Origin: Candidatus Obscuribacterales bacterium
GTDB taxonomy: Bacteria > Cyanobacteriota > Vampirovibrionia > Obscuribacterales > Obscuribacteraceae
Length of the DNA stretch: 64,000 nucleotides
Assembly: GCA_020050835.1 (NCBI GenBank)
Contig: JAGVKB010000102.1
Coordinates: forward strand, 186,001-250,000
Direction of reading: 5' to 3'
Of the stretch, positions 50,142-59,708 are shown one piece after another (within the stretch, counting starts at the first letter, position 1; each line of letters starts with the position of its first letter). Under the pieces are notes generated by a model, which did no database searches, had not been told where the DNA came from, and was given only the letters and a program-made list of their open reading frames with translations. The position numbers were made by a program, and so were the translations under genes.

Positions 50142-51602
50142 CTATGATACCGTGGCTAGTGCCTTGGCTTGAGAGGGCTGCGCTGAAGTCGTGCTGTCGC
50201 TGGATTTCGATGCGACTTCGGACATCAACCGCTCCGCCAGAGCGCGCTTGCTCTCCAGGTCCATCTTCTTGAGCTCGTTGTCGATTGCACGTTCGTTTAC
50301 AACCTGGTTCCAGTAGTCGAGCGACTCGAATCCTAGAAGCGCTGATTTGCCGACGAACTGGCGGATTACTTCATTAGTCGGGCCCATTACCCATCCAGCC
50401 TTTCCGTCACGCAGATAGCGCTCGATGCCGAGCGCCGGTTTGAATCCTGTTCCGCCGCAGGCATGCAACATCTTGTCACCGACATGAGCGACGTTTTTCG
50501 CAGCCAGGAATTTTACCTGCCACATCCAATGCAGGAGCGCCGAGCGCGGTAAGGCGGAAATGTCGTTGTGCATGCTCCAGTCGCAATTGCCGGTCGTGTT
50601 GTCCATTGCTCTTGCCATCTGGAATACAAACGAGCGCGAAGCGTTCGTGTCGATGATCGCTTCACCGACGTAGTCCTGAATCGTCGGGTAATCGCAGACG
50701 CGCATGCCGACGTCAACGTGCTTCCTGGTGGTGGTGTGTCTCTTGGTGATGTCGATCAAGCCCAGTGCGATGCCGTTCCAGCAGGCAGATGAGCAAAGCA
50801 GAAAGAAGGGATCGACCGCCTCGTCATTGGAGCGAGCACCGTCACCGACCGGCCCTACCAAGCGGTCGAGCGGGACGATCACATTGTCGACCACCAGTCC
50901 ACCAGATTGATTACCCCTGAGCCCAAGCCCATCCCATTGCGATGGATCTGTTTTGACTTCATCCTTGTAGACAAGGAAGCAGGAGAGATCGGAGTAGTTG
51001 CCTGCAAAGTCCGGACTGGTAGTTTGAATGACATACCAGTCGGCGAAACCGCCGGAAGTTGTCCAGGAGGCTTTCTTCAACAGTTTCCAGCTGTCTTCGA
51101 GGCGCTCTGCTTTCGACGAGACCGGATACCAGAAGTGAGAACCGGTCTCCGGGTCGGAATAAGAGAGCGTGCCGACAAGCACTTCTTTATCCAGCCGTGA
51201 AAGGATACTTTCAATGGCAGCGCTCGGCTGCGCTTTCATGCCAAGTAATGAGGCGGCGACCGCGCTCAAGTGCATGGTATAGCACATCGCTGTCGATGCG
51301 CAGCCGTAGCGAGCGATCGTCTCTACCACCATGGCAGCACAGGTGTGATTCTCTCCTTGCCCGCCCAATTCCTTGGGAACAATCAATCCCAAAAGACCAA
51401 GCGAAGCAAGAGCTTCGAAATTCTTACGCGGGAAAATCAGTCCTTTGTCCGACTCAACGGCGTTGGTTCTGAGAGTGGTCCGAGCCAATTCAATTAGTTT
51501 TGACTGCAGCTCCTTCTGTTGGTCGGTGAGCAGCCATTGCGGATCAAACTCAAACCCCAGGCCCCAAAACTCTTCGGCGCCCCATAACTTTCTCTCTTTC
51601 AT
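50142..51602 (-). CDS. Acyl-CoA dehydrogenase-fold flavoprotein, possible flavin-dependent monooxygenase
   Basis: 486 residues with the acyl-CoA dehydrogenase fold (LGLLGLIVPKELGGQG, SDPETGSHFWYPVSSKAE, LHACGGTGF). In dehydrogenases the catalytic Glu precedes a G-T in YEGT; here the matching segment is GWVMGPTNEV, with Met (codon at 50385-50387) in that place. Loss of that base and a flavin reductase gene seven bases upstream point to the two-component monooxygenases (DszC/HsaA-like) of this fold. The substrate is not predictable. The ATG at 51602 has GAGGTG close upstream. Lies downstream of the kynurenine genes. Confidence 0.8.
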   Translation of the reverse strand: MKERKLWGAEEFWGLGFEFDPQWLLTDQQKELQSKLIELARTTLRTNAVESDKGLIFPRKNFEALASLGLLGLIVPKELGGQGENHTCAAMVVETIARYGCASTAMCYTMHLSAVAASLLGMKAQPSAAIESILSRLDKEVLVGTLSYSDPETGSHFWYPVSSKAERLEDSWKLLKKASWTTSGGFADWYVIQTTSPDFAGNYSDLSCFLVYKDEVKTDPSQWDGLGLRGNQSGGLVVDNVIVPLDRLVGPVGDGARSNDEAVDPFFLLCSSACWNGIALGLIDITKRHTTTRKHVDVGMRVCDYPTIQDYVGEAIIDTNASRSFVFQMARAMDNTTGNCDWSMHNDISALPRSALLHWMWQVKFLAAKNVAHVGDKMLHACGGTGFKPALGIERYLRDGKAGWVMGPTNEVIRQFVGKSALLGFESLDYWNQVVNERAIDNELKKMDLESKRALAERLMSEVASKSSDSTTSAQPSQAKALATVS

Positions 51603-51609
51603 GATCACC

Positions 51610-52149
51610 TCAGTATCCGAAGCCGTTCTTGCGCATGTGAACCATCGGTTGCGGCTCATCGTTCAACAGTCTGCCGCCTACAACTTCAGCGATCACAATC
51701 ACGTGATCTCCAGCCTCGACCACTTTGCTTACTTTGCAGTCTAGAAAGCTGACTGCTTCTGAGAAAACTGGTCCGGGTGCCTGCGATGTCTCTTCCAATG
51801 CCAAGCCATCGAAGCGGTCGACTCCTTCGGCAGCCGGTCCGGCAAATTTCTTGAAAATGTCCATATTCTTGCCGGACAGAACGTTTAATGTCAACCTTGC
51901 ATCAGGAACGATGTTTGCAAGGAGCGGTCTTTCCTTATTGACTGCCAATGTCACGGTCGGAGGATTGAAGGCTGCCTGCGCTACCCAGGTAGCCATCATG
52001 CCCTGGCGCTGCCCGTCGGCGCTCAATGTGACGATGTAGACGCCGCTGGGAATTCTACCCAACGCCTTGCCGATGTTGTCCTTAACTTCTTGAACTGAAG
52101 AGTCAAGAGCTACCGCAGAGATGCCAGGAGTAACTGTTGCCGAAGACAT
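51610..52149 (-). CDS. Flavin reductase-like protein
   Basis: 179 residues. A flavin-reductase domain (FMN-binding split barrel): LGRIPSGVYIVTL, MMATWVAQAAFNPPTVTLAV, LTLNVL, VIVIAEVVGG and a C-terminal HMRKNGFGY. The AxWVxQAxFxPP block resembles the C-terminal reductase domain of cyanobacterial flavodiiron proteins. It would supply reduced FMN/FAD to the oxygenase-like protein encoded seven bases downstream. ATG start at 52149; 110 bases separate it from the TPR gene. Confidence 0.88.
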   Translation of the reverse strand: MSSATVTPGISAVALDSSVQEVKDNIGKALGRIPSGVYIVTLSADGQRQGMMATWVAQAAFNPPTVTLAVNKERPLLANIVPDARLTLNVLSGKNMDIFKKFAGPAAEGVDRFDGLALEETSQAPGPVFSEAVSFLDCKVSKVVEAGDHVIVIAEVVGGRLLNDEPQPMVHMRKNGFGY

Positions 52150-52259
52150 TTTCTCTCCCCCGTGTCGAGCTTTGTACTGCTAATGATAGATTCAACAGTG
52201 GTTCTGTTGAAACAATATTTTTTAAGAAAGACAGGTAACCAGGTTCGGATCGGAGCTGA

Positions 52260-53054
52260 TTATTTCATCTTAAGAGTAGCCTTGGCTGTCGCGCTGGTCT
52301 GGATGATCGTATTTGCTTCTTCCAGAACTTTCTTTCTCTTCTCGACCTCGGCCTTGTAAGGCGCGATGAAGCCGTCATAACGAGCTTTGCCTCGTTCTCT
52401 TCTCTTTTGAAACTGCTCGGCGCTCTCGCCGTATCTGGCTTGAGTGGGCAGGCAGGATGAAAGCAACGATTCGACTTTTGTGAGACATTCTTCGGCTTGC
52501 TGCAATTGCTCCTCCACGCGTTCCTTTCTCGATTGCGCTTCGGTTAGAAATATTGCCTGGTCGTAAAGCTCCCATTCGAGAAAGGCGGTGATTGTCGGAG
52601 ACTCCGGCGGGGCAGTCGGTATGGACGGTAGGCTTGGTGCTCTTTCATCGGTTTCTTCCGGCGCCGGCGCGGCTGAATGGGCAGGCGGAGCCGGCGTGGC
52701 AGCGGCAGAGGACGAATGGGTGGGCGAATGAGGCTTTACGCTGCCGAATTGTCTGATTGCTTGTAAGCAAAGCGGCGCCGTACTGGCGCTGGGAGCCATT
52801 TTGTAACATTGACGAAATTCTTGCATCGCCTCATCAACTAATTTGAGTTGCAGGCAGGTGTTGGCAAGATAATAGTGCGCGGTTGGATTCTTGGCGTCTG
52901 CTCCCTTGACCGCCGCCATCAAGAACGAAGCCGCTGCCGCGTAATCGCCCTTCGAGTAGAGACTGATACCGATATCTAGATCAGCACCGGCCAGGCAGGC
53001 ATCGGCGTTTAGCGTTGTGATAGTCAACAGTGCCAGCAATCGGTGCATCTGCAT
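52260..53054 (-). CDS. Exported TPR protein with Pro/Ala-rich linker and coiled coil
   Basis: 264 residues. Signal peptide (MHRLLALLTITTLNADACLAG), two or three TPR units (~30-100), a Pro/Ala/Ser linker (~120-170) and a charged helical C-terminus likely to form a coiled coil (QSRKERVEEQLQQAEECL, YKAEVEKRKKVLEEAN). Not an enzyme. It interrupts the kynurenine array between KMO and the flavin reductase, with 117 bases on one side and 110 on the other. ATGs at 53054 and 53048 are both possible starts. Confidence 0.78.
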   Translation of the reverse strand: MQMHRLLALLTITTLNADACLAGADLDIGISLYSKGDYAAAASFLMAAVKGADAKNPTAHYYLANTCLQLKLVDEAMQEFRQCYKMAPSASTAPLCLQAIRQFGSVKPHSPTHSSSAAATPAPPAHSAAPAPEETDERAPSLPSIPTAPPESPTITAFLEWELYDQAIFLTEAQSRKERVEEQLQQAEECLTKVESLLSSCLPTQARYGESAEQFQKRRERGKARYDGFIAPYKAEVEKRKKVLEEANTIIQTSATAKATLKMK

Positions 53055-53171
53055 TCTGACTGTACCTGTCTTGAGAGGCGATTTTATTATCGTATACCAC
53101 GTCAAACTGCTTAGCTCGCTCGGCCGGAGCGGTTTGATCTTGAGATTGCGGACGGAATCTTCTCAGGCGAT

Positions 53172-54605
53172 TCAGCGCAGCTCGGAGACTAGCTCTTGGT
53201 CGTGCTGATTCAGGAATGGAGTTAGTTTAGCGTTGATCAGTCTTTCCGCCAGTTTGAGGTCTACCCGGTCGGGGCTGGAAAGGTCAGCACAAAGTTCAGC
53301 AAGAATCTCATCCAGAATGAATCCTGCCTCCATCGCCACTTTATATGGAATCCGGCTGAACGTCACCAGTGAGTAGCGCGAAAAATATCTACCGGGAAAG
53401 GCGTTTTGCAGAATCTGCTCGACGGCCTTTTGCTGGATAAATTGTGAATTGCCGACTTTGTCGCGCATTTCGATAAAGTTTTCCAATGCCAGATCGGCGA
53501 TTGCGTCAGTATTCTCTTTGCGTTGCTCGTAGAAATCCTGGAAGAGCCCGGACCAATTCAGCCGGCTGCCGGAGAGCTGAGCGCTCAGACATTGCGATAA
53601 AACCGAACAATCCTCGAAGCCACAATTCATTCCCTGACCGAAGAACGGAACGATGCCGTGCGCGGCATCTCCCAGTAAGAGCGTGTTTCCTCCGGCATGC
53701 CACGGCTGGCATTTGATAGTAGACATATGTCCGGTCGGATTGGAGAAGAAAGTGTCGGTCAGGTTCTCGATCAGATGAACTGTGTCGGCAAAATATTCTG
53801 TAAAAAAGGCAGAAACTCTATCGGGCGAGGTCAGCTGTTCGAAGCTGATTGGACCTTCAAACGGCAGAAAGAGAGTGCAGGTATAACTACCTTCGAAGTT
53901 CGGAAGGGCGATCAGCATGAAAGAACCGCGCGGCCATATGTGCAGTGCGTTTTTCTCCAGAAGGAATTTGCCTTTCGGTCCCGGCGGAATATGAAGCTCT
54001 TTGTAGCCGTAGTCTAAGAATTTCTCCTTAGACTGATGTCTGGGCAACTTCATCATGGCATGGCGAATCGCTGATGCTGAGCCGTCCGTTCCAATGAGCA
54101 CCGACGGTGTTAGCTTGAGTGTCTCGTCGTTCTCTTCGTCGAAAATCTCCAGTTGTCCGCTTCCAAAGTCGACAGCAGTCGCTCTTTGGTGAAACGATAT
54201 GCGTACTTTCTGCGTGCTCTCCGCTGCTGTCATGAGAGCCTTATTGAGACCGCCCCGCGAGATTGAGTTGATGTATTGTGAATCGTCCTTACCGTAAGCT
54301 TGAAAGGACAATTCGCCTGCGAGCGAATGAATCATCCGTCCGCGCATCGGCACGGCTTGCTCCAGGATGGCTTCGGCGAGTCCAATCTGTTTGAGCGCAT
54401 GGATGCCACGGGTGGAAACGGCCAGATTGATAGATCGACCGGCGCTAATCTGCTCGCTGCGCATGTCCGCTCGGCGTTCGATTAGCTCCACCTGAAAACC
54501 GTGTTGTGCCAGATACACCGACAATAATGAGCCGACAGGACCGGCTCCAATCAAGGTGATCTTGGGCGAGTTGTCAGACTGATTGCTCACATCACCGAAT
54601 GTCAA
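53172..54605 (-). CDS. kmo: Kynurenine 3-monooxygenase
   Basis: 477 residues. An FAD- and NADPH-dependent hydroxylase that makes 3-hydroxykynurenine. Seen: FAD motif LIGAGPVGSLLSVYLA, AGRSINLAVSTRGIHAL (KMO-specific), TDGSASAIR, and LLGDAAHGIVPFFGQGMNCGFEDC (read as two family blocks). The start is TTG at 54605: a GGAGG element inside the end of kynU lies eight bases before it, and only three bases separate the kynU stop and this start. Some bacterial KMOs have a C-terminal membrane-associated region; the tail here has no clear span. Confidence 0.95.
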   Translation of the reverse strand: MTFGDVSNQSDNSPKITLIGAGPVGSLLSVYLAQHGFQVELIERRADMRSEQISAGRSINLAVSTRGIHALKQIGLAEAILEQAVPMRGRMIHSLAGELSFQAYGKDDSQYINSISRGGLNKALMTAAESTQKVRISFHQRATAVDFGSGQLEIFDEENDETLKLTPSVLIGTDGSASAIRHAMMKLPRHQSKEKFLDYGYKELHIPPGPKGKFLLEKNALHIWPRGSFMLIALPNFEGSYTCTLFLPFEGPISFEQLTSPDRVSAFFTEYFADTVHLIENLTDTFFSNPTGHMSTIKCQPWHAGGNTLLLGDAAHGIVPFFGQGMNCGFEDCSVLSQCLSAQLSGSRLNWSGLFQDFYEQRKENTDAIADLALENFIEMRDKVGNSQFIQQKAVEQILQNAFPGRYFSRYSLVTFSRIPYKVAMEAGFILDEILAELCADLSSPDRVDLKLAERLINAKLTPFLNQHDQELVSELR

Positions 54606-54608
54606 ACT

Positions 54609-55916
54609 TCAATCCTCCGTGCATCTTTGCACCAGTTGGGCGAATCTATATACTTCGGAAAACGTGTTGAAGAGCGGGGCCGGCGCTACTCTGATTATGT
54701 CAGGCTCGCGAAAGTCGCAGATCGCTCCGGCCGTGTTCAGGGTATTCAACAGTTGCTTGGGATCGCCCTTTACTCGGACTGAGAGCTGGCAGCCGCGTTG
54801 GGATTGCTCTCTCGGAGTGATGATCCTACAAAACTGATTGGGAATTCTTTCGAGCAGATATTCAAGATAACCGGTAAGCAGGTCTCCTTTGCGGCGGATC
54901 GCCACCATTCCCGCCCGGTCGAAAAGCTCCATTGAAGCTCTCAATGCCGCCAATTGAAGGATCGGTGGATTGCTCAGTTGCCAGCCTTCTGCACCAGGAA
55001 TGGGGTCGAAGGTAGGAGCCATTTTGAATCTGGTCGCTTTATTGTGTCCCCACCAACCACAGAATCTTGGCAGACTGGCATCGTTTGCATGTCTTTCGTG
55101 CACAAAGCAACCAGCCAATCCGCCAGGACCGGCGTTAAGATACTTATAACTGCACCAGACTGCAAAATCTACTGTCCAATCGTGCAGGTCTAGCAAGAGA
55201 TTGCCGGCTCCGTGAGCGAGATTGAGCCCGATCAGGCAGCCTTTCTCGTGCGCCAGCTTTGCGATGGTGGCAATGTCGAAAGCTTGACCGGTCAAGTAAT
55301 TGACATCGCCGAGCATCACTAACGCGATTGAATCTCCCTCTCTTTCAATCAGCTCGAGAATGTCTCCCGGTCTGATTAACGATTCACCTTTGCGCGGAGC
55401 AATTTCGACGACTGCTTGGGCGGGATCGAATCCATGAAATTTGGCCTGTGAATTTACTGCGTATTGGTCAGAGGGAAAGGCGTTGCTTTCAATCAAGATT
55501 TTGTAGCGGGTCTTAGTCGGTCGATAGAACGACACCATCATCAAGTGCAAATTAGTGGTCAGCGTGTTCATTACGACCACCTCGCCTGACTTGGCACCGA
55601 CCAGCCGGGCAGTAGAATCGGTCAGATTCTCGTGATAGGAAAGCCACGGTTTACGAGCTGCCCAATGCCCTTCGACGCCGAGGCGCGCCCAATCATCAAG
55701 CTCTTCTGCTACGTATTGCTTGGTCTTCCTTGGTTGAAGCCCGAGCGAGTTGCCCGCGAAGTAAATGCAGTCACTGCCCCCTTCAGTCTGGGGGATGTGG
55801 AAATGAGAGCGAAACTCGGCAATTGGATCGTCCTTATCTAAGGCGGCCGCAAATTGCTCGTTTGCCTGGTAAGTCATTTCTGCGTTGGTCCCTGCAATTG
55901 AATTAGGTGGTCTCAC
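54609..55916 (-). CDS. kynU: Kynureninase with Asp-to-Asn change at the PLP pyridine-nitrogen position
   Basis: 435 residues. A PLP-dependent hydrolase that splits 3-hydroxykynurenine into 3-hydroxyanthranilate and alanine. The PLP lysine is in VWCSYKYLNAGPGG (residue ~258). The Asp that normally pairs with the PLP ring nitrogen (FDLAHA in relatives, Asp250 in the human enzyme) is Asn here: the segment reads GLNLAHGAGN (residue ~232, codon 55221-55223). All other family blocks look intact. The start is GTG at 55916 with GAGGAA seven bases upstream; the ATG at 55877 is less well supported. Second-last of the tight kynurenine block. Confidence 0.95.
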   Translation of the reverse strand: MRPPNSIAGTNAEMTYQANEQFAAALDKDDPIAEFRSHFHIPQTEGGSDCIYFAGNSLGLQPRKTKQYVAEELDDWARLGVEGHWAARKPWLSYHENLTDSTARLVGAKSGEVVVMNTLTTNLHLMMVSFYRPTKTRYKILIESNAFPSDQYAVNSQAKFHGFDPAQAVVEIAPRKGESLIRPGDILELIEREGDSIALVMLGDVNYLTGQAFDIATIAKLAHEKGCLIGLNLAHGAGNLLLDLHDWTVDFAVWCSYKYLNAGPGGLAGCFVHERHANDASLPRFCGWWGHNKATRFKMAPTFDPIPGAEGWQLSNPPILQLAALRASMELFDRAGMVAIRRKGDLLTGYLEYLLERIPNQFCRIITPREQSQRGCQLSVRVKGDPKQLLNTLNTAGAICDFREPDIIRVAPAPLFNTFSEVYRFAQLVQRCTED

Positions 55917-55945: not shown

Positions 55946-56974
55946 CTATTGTCTGGCAACCTGGAAATCGGTCGTCTCTTTTTTCAACCAGTCGAGCGCG
56001 GTTTTCCACAGAAGCTGGTCCTTGGTACTCTGGGGGAGGTCTGTTATGGACTCGATCAACTTTCCGGGCTCGTCTTCGCCAAGCGGAAACGGATAGTCGG
56101 AGCCTAGCGCAATCCGTCTTTCTCCAATCACTTCGATTAGATATGACAATGCGCGCTGATCGTGCACTAAGGAATCGACATAGAAGTGACCGAGATATGA
56201 GCTTGGATTGACTTTGTTGTCGACGGCGCATAAGTCAGGACGGCATTTAAAGCCGTGCTCGATCCGTCCGACGGTGGCTGGAAACGAACCGCCACCATGC
56301 GCGAAGCAGACTCTCAAATTTGGAAATCGCGCGAATACACCGCCGAAGATCATCGAAGAGATTGCCAGCGTCGTCTCAGCCGGCATGCCGATAAGCCATG
56401 GTAGCCAATACTTCTCCATGCGCTCTTGCCCCATCATATCCCAGGGATGAACGAAAATCGCCGCGTCCAAGTCTTGCGCAGCGCTGAAGACAGGTATTAG
56501 GCTTTCGTCGCTGAGGTTCCATTCGTTTATGTGCGAGCCGATCTGTACTCCGGCCAGTCCGAGAGAGCGCATGCAACGCTCTAGTTCGCGCACTGCCAAT
56601 TCCGGAGATTGCATCGGAAGAGTTCCCAGCCCGACGAATCTGTTTGGATTGCCGGCTACGACCGACGCGATATGATCGTTGAGAAAACGGGACAAGTCAT
56701 AGCAATCTTGGGCCTTGGCCCAATAACTGAACATGACCGGCACGGTGGAGATGACTTGCACATCCACTCCAGAGCGGTCAAGATCGATGATGCGGGCCGG
56801 CGCGTCCCAGCAATTGCTTTCAATTTCGCGAAAGAATTTACCATCGTCTCTAAGCATTCTTGCGCAGTTCGGCTTGTGATGATCGAGACAGATGAAACCG
56901 CCATAGCCAAACCGCTCCTTCCAGTTAGGAATATCAGGCGGCAGGATATGAGTGTGAATATCAATCTTTCGCAT
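55946..56974 (-). CDS. 2-amino-3-carboxymuconate-6-semialdehyde decarboxylase (ACMSD)
   Basis: 342 residues, amidohydrolase-fold zinc enzyme. Removes CO2 from ACMS to give 2-aminomuconate semialdehyde, taking carbon away from quinolinate and NAD. Metal ligands are visible: His-His in DIHTHILP, His in IFVHPWDM and Asp in [10 protein letters not shown]; the catalytic His is in [10 protein letters not shown]. It overlaps the HAO gene by 14 bases, so the two are translated in a coupled way. The ACMSD step is strong evidence that this pathway is catabolic. Confidence 0.96.
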
Positions 56975-57485
56975 CTGGTTTCTCTAATTTAGAGCCGCAT
57001 TTTTTGCAGGTGTAGTGCTCTGCTCTTGAGTAAAACCGCTCAAAGATCGCCGGCAACTCGCTGACGATGCTCTTAAGCTGAAAGAACTCTTCATACAACC
57101 TTTCAGAGCAAACCGGGCAATACCAAGCGAAACCATCAAGCTCACCGGCGAGGCGTTTGCGTTCGATTACAAGACCGACTGAATTCGCCGGGCGCTGCGG
57201 CGAATGAGGAATGTTCGATGGCAAAAGGAAGATCTCACCAGCCTTGATGGCGATATCACGTGGTTTGCCATCATCTATGACTTTGAGAATCATGTCGCCT
57301 TCTACTTGGTAGAAGAACTCTTCACCTGGGTCTATATGATAGTCGGTTCGGGAATTGGGACCGCCGACAACCATCACGATAAGCTCGGCGTCTTCATAAA
57401 CCAGCTTGTTGCCAACGGGAGGCTTGAGCAGGTGCCGGTGTTCGGCTATCCAAGCCTGAAAGTTGATCGGTGCGAGCAATGCCAT
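56961..57485 (-). CDS. 3-hydroxyanthranilate 3,4-dioxygenase
   Basis: 174 residues. A cupin-fold, non-haem iron dioxygenase that opens the ring of 3-hydroxyanthranilate to ACMS. Iron ligands: His and Glu in [13 protein letters not shown], and His in SNIPHSPQR. The C-terminal rubredoxin-like iron site with two CxxC pairs (YCPVCSE and TCKKCGS), typical of the bacterial enzymes, is present. ATG start at 57485 with GAGAGGAAA upstream. It lies between the TPR gene (13 bases away) and ACMSD (overlap). Confidence 0.96.
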
Positions 57486-57498
57486 TAGAAGTTTCCTC

Positions 57499-58779
57499 TC
57501 AAGTTCCGCGAATTGCGCGCGATCTAGCAGAAATTTTTGCTGCTTCTGCTTCGCGATGAATTCGTTTCAATACGTCGGCGTATGCGTCCAGAATCGGAGA
57601 TAGCGAACAGTGCTGAGGACCATTGGACCGCTCGGCAATGGCAATCGCTCGCTTCAATAGCGGCTCCGCTTGAGCGAATTTCCCTTCCTGAATGTAGGTT
57701 TGTGCGAGCGCTGTCAGGTACTTCCCAGTGTCGGGGCCATTTGCCGAACCTGATTTGTCAGCATTTGCTAGCAGCCGCAGGTAGAGCTCTTCAGCCGACG
57801 AGCGATCTCCGAGATTGGTATAGCATTGTGCAAGTCCGTCGATCTTAGTAAACAAGTCGCGACCGCCGCCGACCTTCTCGCAGATCTGCAGCGACTTTTT
57901 AAACAGCGGCTCGGCCTGGGCGAATTTCGCTTGCGCCAGCAATACACTGGCCAGGTTCTCATAGCTGGCTGATAGCGCTAAATGTTCTGACTTTAGCGAC
58001 CTTTCTCTAATTGCCAGAGCGAGTTTAAAGAGCTGTTCGGCTTGTGGAAGTTTGTTTCTTTGCTGATAAGTTGTGCCGAGTCGATCCAGACCAACAGCCA
58101 ATTCCGGATACTGATCGTTGAGTGAATTGGCGGTCATCTGCTGAGCTTGTTTGATCAACGGTCGGGCGGCTTCTAATTGCGGGCGAGTGGCAAAGAAGGC
58201 GGCCAGCTCTTGGAGATTGGCAATAGCCTTCTGTTCACGCTGAAACTTTCGCTCGGTAAACTCCACTAACTTGTTGTAGAGTCGCTCCGATTTTACGGTC
58301 TTTCCATGCGCCAGATAAAATTGTCCAAGTCTTGCCAAACTGATCAGGACTTCGGGATCTTCGACACCCAAAAGTTTGCCTCGAGCGCTCATCGCCTTTT
58401 CCATCAGCGGCTCCGATTTAGCAAACTGTCCGCGCGCTTGATAAAGGGCGGCCAGGTTCTCGTAGCTCTCAGCCAATCGCCGATCTTGCTTGCTGGTTTT
58501 CTGCGCTTCTTTAAGCGCGGAGTTGTAGAAGCGCTCAGCGTCGCCGAATTTCCCGGCTTTCAAAGCAATCTCGCCTTGTTTCGCGAATCGCTCCCAGACA
58601 GTTTCAGGAATCGGACAGGTTTGATCTTCTGCTTTGGCTGAGCTGATTACCGGGCCGTCGGTGCCTTTGATGGCCTCCGTTTGCTTGCAAACTGCCATCT
58701 CCGCACGACTGCCGAGATGGCAGTTTGCAAGCAATGTCGCAACTAATGTTGCCCCAACAAGTGAACAGCGTGAATTCAT
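57499..58779 (-). CDS. Exported TPR-repeat protein inside the kynurenine operon
   Basis: 426 residues. Signal peptide ([14 protein letters not shown]), then eight or more TPR units of the kinesin-light-chain style ([60 protein letters not shown]). Such repeats bind partner proteins. The ATG overlaps the TDO stop (ATGA), so it is translationally coupled to TDO, an unexpected place for an exported scaffold. Codons ~16-33 contain a perfect 21-bp inverted repeat. Role in tryptophan use is unknown. Confidence 0.85.
58681..58734 (-). repeat. Perfect 21-bp inverted repeat, 12-base loop
   Basis: Arms 58681-58701 and 58714-58734 are exact reverse complements, separated by a 12-base loop. In RNA of either strand it forms a very stable hairpin. 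It sits inside the TPR coding region, 42 bases after the TDO stop codon in transcript sense, where it encodes the signal-peptide junction (ANCHLGS, AEMAVCK). There is no T-tract, so it is not a standard terminator. A processing, attenuation or insertion origin is possible. Confidence 0.9.
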
Positions 58780-59708
58780 AGTTCTAGATATGTTCTTAAT
58801 TTCCAGAGATCCGGAAAGCAACGCTTGGTCATTGTCGAGCGCAGGTAATTTACTCCTTCACTGCCGCCGGTACCACGCTTGAAACCGATCATCCTTTCGA
58901 CGACAGTAACATGGTGGGTGCGCCAGAGAAAGATCAGCTCGTCGATGTCGAACAGGGTCTCGGCCAATTCGTGGAGATCAAAGTATTTTTCCGGATCGTT
59001 GTAGATCTTCAACAGTTCGCTAATGCGCTTTTCCTGGAGGCTGTCGGTCTCTTCCTCGACAGCATGGCCGGCATTTCTCAACAGAGCCTTTTCTTTCAGA
59101 AGCTCTTGCATCGAACCCAATTCCGGCTTGGCGGGTGGTGTGCTTTCAACTGGAATTGCAAATCCTCTCACTTTCAGGACTTTGTAGAATGACTCCGGCA
59201 AAGAGGGTGCCGCATATCGCTCCCAGAGCCTTTTGAAAGCCACGGAATCTGCTTCGAAGTGAGCTAACAATCGCTCGTCCTTCAGTCCGCAGGCAAATTC
59301 AATCTCTCTAAATTGACTGGACTGAAATCCGCTGGCTGGGTTCAAGTTGTAACGGAAGCCGAGAAAGTCTTTTGGTGTCATCGTCTCCAAAATGTGGATT
59401 TGCTGGACAAGTAGCTTCATGATCGCCACTATCCGCTTGAGATAAAAGGTTGCTTTCAGCGCTCTGTCTGCTTCCAAGAGTTCGAAAACCGTATCGATCT
59501 CGTGGAGAATTTGCTTGAACCAGAGTTCGTAAGATTGGTGAATGATGATGAAGAGCGTTTCGTCATGGTGCGCGGGATCGGACTGGCAATGTTGCAAGCT
59601 CTTCAGCTCCTCTACTTTCAAATATGAGTTGTAGTTGAGCGGAGAGCTACCTCCCTTCGGAGCAGGATTGCTCTGATTAGTGGTCCGGCTGGACATTTCG
59701 TTTGGCAT
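58776..59708 (-). CDS. kynA: Tryptophan 2,3-dioxygenase
   Basis: 310 residues. A haem dioxygenase that starts the pathway by converting tryptophan to N-formylkynurenine. Family blocks: IIIHQSYELWFKQILHE (active-site His), LGFRYNLNPASGFQSSQFR, and the haem-His region RTHHVTVVERMIG with GTGGSEGVNYL. I use the ATG at 59708, preceded by GGAG six bases upstream; a GTG 90 bases upstream would add an unconserved tail. First gene of the kynurenine block, 136 bases downstream of the metallophosphatase stop. Confidence 0.96.
   Translation of the reverse strand: MPNEMSSRTTNQSNPAPKGGSSPLNYNSYLKVEELKSLQHCQSDPAHHDETLFIIIHQSYELWFKQILHEIDTVFELLEADRALKATFYLKRIVAIMKLLVQQIHILETMTPKDFLGFRYNLNPASGFQSSQFREIEFACGLKDERLLAHFEADSVAFKRLWERYAAPSLPESFYKVLKVRGFAIPVESTPPAKPELGSMQELLKEKALLRNAGHAVEEETDSLQEKRISELLKIYNDPEKYFDLHELAETLFDIDELIFLWRTHHVTVVERMIGFKRGTGGSEGVNYLRSTMTKRCFPDLWKLRTYLEL

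Follow-up and report, generated by a model that had tools for sequence, protein, structure and literature searches.

The window, that is, the whole 64,000-nucleotide stretch of Candidatus Obscuribacterales DNA that was analysed, contains a kynurenine operon on its minus strand. A gene encoding a secreted TPR protein lies within this operon, directly after the gene for tryptophan 2,3-dioxygenase (TDO), and it is host to a long, perfect inverted repeat. The genes and features of the locus are listed here in the order in which they are met on the operon strand.

58776..59708, minus strand: tryptophan 2,3-dioxygenase (TDO), the upstream gene, assigned by family match.
58776..58779, minus strand: ATGA overlap formed by the TPR start codon and the TDO stop codon; the nearest orthologue has a similar overlap with a different upstream gene.
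57499..58779, minus strand: gene of the secreted TPR protein (426 aa), the host of the hairpin; relatives of the protein carry signal peptides.
58714..58734, minus strand: 5' arm of the hairpin on the mRNA, TTGCTTGCAAACTGCCATCTC, codons 16-22 (LLANCHL), at the end of the hydrophobic region of the signal peptide.
58702..58713, minus strand: 12-nt loop, GGCAGTCGTGCG (GSRA), the ends of which give 3 further pairs past a mismatch so that a 4-nt tip remains.
58681..58701, minus strand: 3' arm, GAGATGGCAGTTTGCAAGCAA, codons 27-33 (EMAVCKQ), at the start of the mature protein; probably an inverted copy of the 5' arm, if the proposed direction is correct.
56961..57485, minus strand: 3-hydroxyanthranilate 3,4-dioxygenase, the downstream gene, assigned by family match.
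55946..56974, minus strand: amidohydrolase, probably ACMSD, judged from the operon context (no NCBIfam match).
54609..55916, minus strand: kynureninase, assigned by family match.
53172..54605, minus strand: FAD monooxygenase, probably kynurenine 3-monooxygenase, judged from the operon context.

Beyond the probable kynurenine monooxygenase gene, the operon strand encodes a second small TPR protein, a flavin reductase and an acyl-CoA-dehydrogenase-like protein (50142-53105 of the window). This stretch possibly includes a two-component flavin monooxygenase that acts in a later step.

Comparison of the two 21-base arms (58681-58701 and 58714-58734) determined that they are exact reverse complements set 12 bases apart, as a first-pass annotation of this DNA had claimed. 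Past one mismatch the pairing extends inward by 3 more pairs, giving arms of 25 bases and a 4-nt tip. When the 141 nt of operon-strand RNA around the hairpin were folded, an energy of -60.4 kcal/mol was obtained compared with -34.8 kcal/mol (sd 3.4) for shuffled sequences; the z score was about -7.6 to -7.7 and none of the shuffles was equally stable. A perfect stem of this length with a loop of at most 40 bases is expected only ~5e-7 times in 64 kb (64,000 x 38 x 4^-21), and the hairpin is therefore not a product of chance. Short-range inverted repeats of comparable quality were absent from the rest of the 64-kb window.

The hairpin lies wholly within the TPR gene, in codons 16-33, and the reading frame is open across both arms. 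These codons run from the last part of the hydrophobic stretch across the probable cleavage site into the beginning of the mature protein. The earlier annotation was right to place the hairpin within coding sequence and in the signal peptide of the gene after TDO in the kynurenine operon. The title of the same annotation had set the hairpin between TDO and the remainder of the operon, which does not hold, as the two genes overlap in the ATGA and there is no spacer. It had also put the hairpin 42 bases after the TDO stop; the hairpin does follow the stop, and the distance from the stop to the outer arm is 41 bases. A hairpin located in the 5'-UTR of a TPR gene with a later start was rejected because the ATGA start yields the signal peptide of the family and the nearest orthologue has a similar overlap start. 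The stem begins at nt +46 of the TPR gene and the start codon is thus left uncovered. In the register of the two arms each codon faces its complementary codon, so that hydrophobic signal-peptide codons have hydrophilic codons as their mirror images (LLANCHL versus EMAVCKQ). It would appear that a signal-peptide boundary can tolerate this mirroring.

Comparison of the signal-peptide region across orthologues, which had been proposed as a check, revealed that the hairpin is absent from every orthologue examined. Among 29 orthologous or paralogous TPR loci, not one has a perfect stem of at least 11 bp at the equivalent place; 20 of the loci were folded, and the corresponding stretch was ordinary in each (z -3.0 to +1.1). 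The closest protein relative is 58% identical. The nearest orthologue (genome G017, locus L009) is without the hairpin (z -1.2), and its TPR gene overlaps the upstream neighbour through the same ATGA, the neighbour being a metallophosphoesterase gene rather than TDO. The leader up to a shared GE motif is 69 residues long here compared with 66 in G017, lengths so close that they call for no net gain of a 54-bp element. Only 9 of 60 aligned leader positions are identical between the two proteins, against roughly 60% in the rest of the protein, and on this alignment the leader appears as the fastest-changing part of the TPR protein. The G017 leader has diverged too far to stand in as the ancestor of the hairpin. 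The TPR proteins of the relatives also start with signal peptides.

The gene neighbourhood varies as well. In G017 the TPR orthologue directly follows the metallophosphoesterase gene, and TDO was not found in that genome, which is 85% complete. Other relatives have the metallophosphoesterase gene followed by TDO, with no TPR gene between them. A TPR gene adjoining TDO was seen in no relative among the matches listed.

Perfect stems were surveyed in sampled contigs together with the window, which amount to 2.29 Mb of the 7.0-Mb genome. Ten perfect stems of at least 18 bp with loops of 3-40 bases were found, of which nine are intergenic and only the TPR hairpin is located in a gene. At a threshold of at least 12 bp there were 33 in-gene perfect stems in the 2.29 Mb, a number based on simple open-frame gene calls, so that some of these stems may precede the true start. 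An earlier count over 976 genes gave 18 close in-gene inverted repeats of at least 12 bp, compared with 4 in each of two controls with distant spacing and 2.6 in codon shuffles. Inverted repeats of this local, in-gene kind are thus mildly over-represented in the genome, and the TPR hairpin is the extreme of the sample. This excess is what would be expected if local templating recurs, and an excess of local in-gene inverted repeats has been reported for bacteria generally (PMC4060949). Two further in-gene perfect stems of the same genome are located at or near apparent signal-peptide ends (L260:6009-6044, 16 bp, and L254:6891-6926, 14 bp). A widespread class of signal-peptide hairpins is not claimed, since the cases returned by a systematic test were too few.

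The leading alternative to a mutational origin is that the hairpin regulates the mRNA, in that the stem of 21-25 bp would be cut by RNase III or would slow ribosomes early in the TPR gene and so uncouple TDO from the downstream kynurenine genes. The stem is very stable and amounts to about two helical turns, and its 21 pairs plus 3 past the mismatch provide the ~20 bp or more of double-stranded RNA that an RNase III site requires; RNase III is encoded in the genome. Inverted repeats in E. coli show some enrichment at ~25-60 bp downstream of start codons, and it has been proposed that some of them act as riboregulators (PMC6060812). Against this, a conserved cis-regulatory RNA is kept in orthologues, and this structure occurs in none of those examined; among the matches listed, no relative has the TPR gene next to TDO. 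The blocked ribosomes, RNase III cutting and raised TDO that had been suggested earlier thus find no comparative support. A stem that begins at nt +46 also covers neither the start codon nor the stretch occupied by a ribosome that terminates on TDO, and stems within translated regions are normally unwound. A regulatory role is therefore unlikely, and the hairpin is probably without one. Its more specific form, in which an in-frame, lineage-specific coding hairpin at the signal-peptide boundary would pause ribosomes or be cut by RNase III and so set the ratio of TDO to the downstream products, is less likely still. If it were true, one stretch of sequence would double as leader peptide and expression divider, and if the mRNA were processed there this would be an unusual way of setting ratios within one operon. 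The hairpin is not an intrinsic terminator, as no U-run follows the stem: it is followed by ACGGAGGCC on the operon strand, there is no T-run on the other strand, and the site is absent from the listed terminator-like sites.

It was also considered whether the palindrome could be an assembly or library artefact, such as a fold-back chimera in a metagenome-derived draft. The draft consists of 154 contigs with 4% contamination, which leaves some room for such an error. However, a single short read can hold the entire 54-bp structure, no stop interrupts the frame in either arm, the length of the leader is within 3 residues of that of the nearest orthologue, and the structure is compact, unlike a long inverted duplication. 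An artefact is accordingly unlikely.

The idea that a mobile palindromic element, REP-like or MITE-like, was captured by the TPR gene is harder still to sustain. Such elements occur in several copies and outside genes. The hairpin is palindromic in form, and another family of palindromic hairpins does exist in the genome, but the check for further copies, allowing up to 2 mismatches over 17 bases and by BLAST, returned no second copy in its own genome, so the TPR hairpin is not a dispersed element. No copies were found in 49 other genomes of the family or in a 386-genome sample of the phylum, and there were no matches in the viral-contig, plasmid and phage sets searched. No Rfam family matched above threshold; the sole match, to a microRNA model, was sub-threshold and was set aside as a chance match. 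Together with a leader just 3 residues longer than that of the nearest orthologue, these results speak against the recently inserted palindromic element that had been proposed.

The other palindrome family, TCAACCGNNNNCGGTTGA, is unrelated in sequence to the TPR hairpin. It is present in five copies in the genome (C2:32291, C57:1778, C73:186263, C73:201768 and C100:52200; position 1501 of loci L270-L274) and is found in 25 of 50 family genomes, with loci in relatives represented by L275-L298. Copy numbers reach 90 in G023 and 40 in G007, and a reversed control pattern gave 0. In many of the copies the outer arms vary from copy to copy yet pair perfectly, forming stems of up to 29 bp. The copies are often A-rich before and T-rich after the palindrome, and some may therefore be bidirectional terminators. 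In G023 several copies are arrayed at a spacing of 37 or ~66 bp.

A site acting at the DNA level is as improbable as a captured element: in principle a dimeric regulator could use a perfect inverted repeat as its operator, or the repeat could extrude a cruciform under supercoiling, but the arms are much longer than an operator requires, and the site is in a gene and not at a promoter, single copy and unconserved.

An ordinary mutational origin is the most likely, and the hairpin is probably the product of a local, lineage-specific template switch in a weakly constrained leader. It has the close, perfect or near-perfect inverted repeat and the short tip of such products. During DNA synthesis, on reaching a short inverted repeat already present in the TPR leader, the growing strand would have folded back on itself or changed template, an event that may also be described as the completion of a quasipalindrome. 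About 21-25 nt of the adjoining arm would have been copied in inverted orientation, and the previous sequence would have given way to a perfect palindrome. Copying would have proceeded from the 5' arm to the 3' arm. The alignment with G017 weakly suggests that the 5' arm is the original, and a comparison of codon usage between the arms gave no indication of which came first. The inverted copy may have survived for three reasons: constraint is weak across the last signal-peptide residues and the beginning of the mature protein, the frame was kept without a stop, and complementary codons swap hydrophobic for hydrophilic residues, which fits a signal-peptide boundary. We infer the template-switch event, the direction of copying and the lack of function, and several points weigh against this origin. 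The relatives are too distant for ancestral reconstruction (the nearest protein is 58% identical), so that the event is itself a deduction; the excess of in-gene repeats could equally reflect selection for mRNA structure; and the continued perfection of the arms could also be explained by selection.

Template switches at quasipalindromes, which make them perfect, have been documented in E. coli (PMC7202029), and template switching has been documented as a source of RNA hairpins (PMC8794818). Such events leave a perfect inverted repeat of short range and with a small tip, and the TPR hairpin has this form. It differs from the E. coli quasipalindrome reporters, which have an 18-bp repeat, in that the copied tract is longer (21-25 nt) and the event is proposed without an ancestral sequence. 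Like the close in-gene inverted repeats that have been surveyed, it is close, perfect and within a gene, and an excess of such repeats was measured in this genome too; unlike them, with their arms of 6-9 bp, it is extreme in length. The palindromes in the coding regions of Nematomorpha mitochondria (PMC6649704) are likewise perfect inverted repeats in which both arms encode protein, but they are numerous, reach 284 bp and fall in conserved regions of proteins, whereas here a single 21-bp repeat is found in a variable leader. REP/BIME-like palindromic repeats also form hairpins of tens of bases, but they occur in many copies between genes, and the TPR hairpin is single copy and intragenic. The TPR hairpin is a long example of an already known type.

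As such, the hairpin provides a clear example that long, perfect in-gene stems can arise without being regulators. It also suggests that an inverted copy that keeps the frame may be accepted at a fast-changing signal-peptide boundary, since antisense codons put hydrophilic residues in place of hydrophobic ones.
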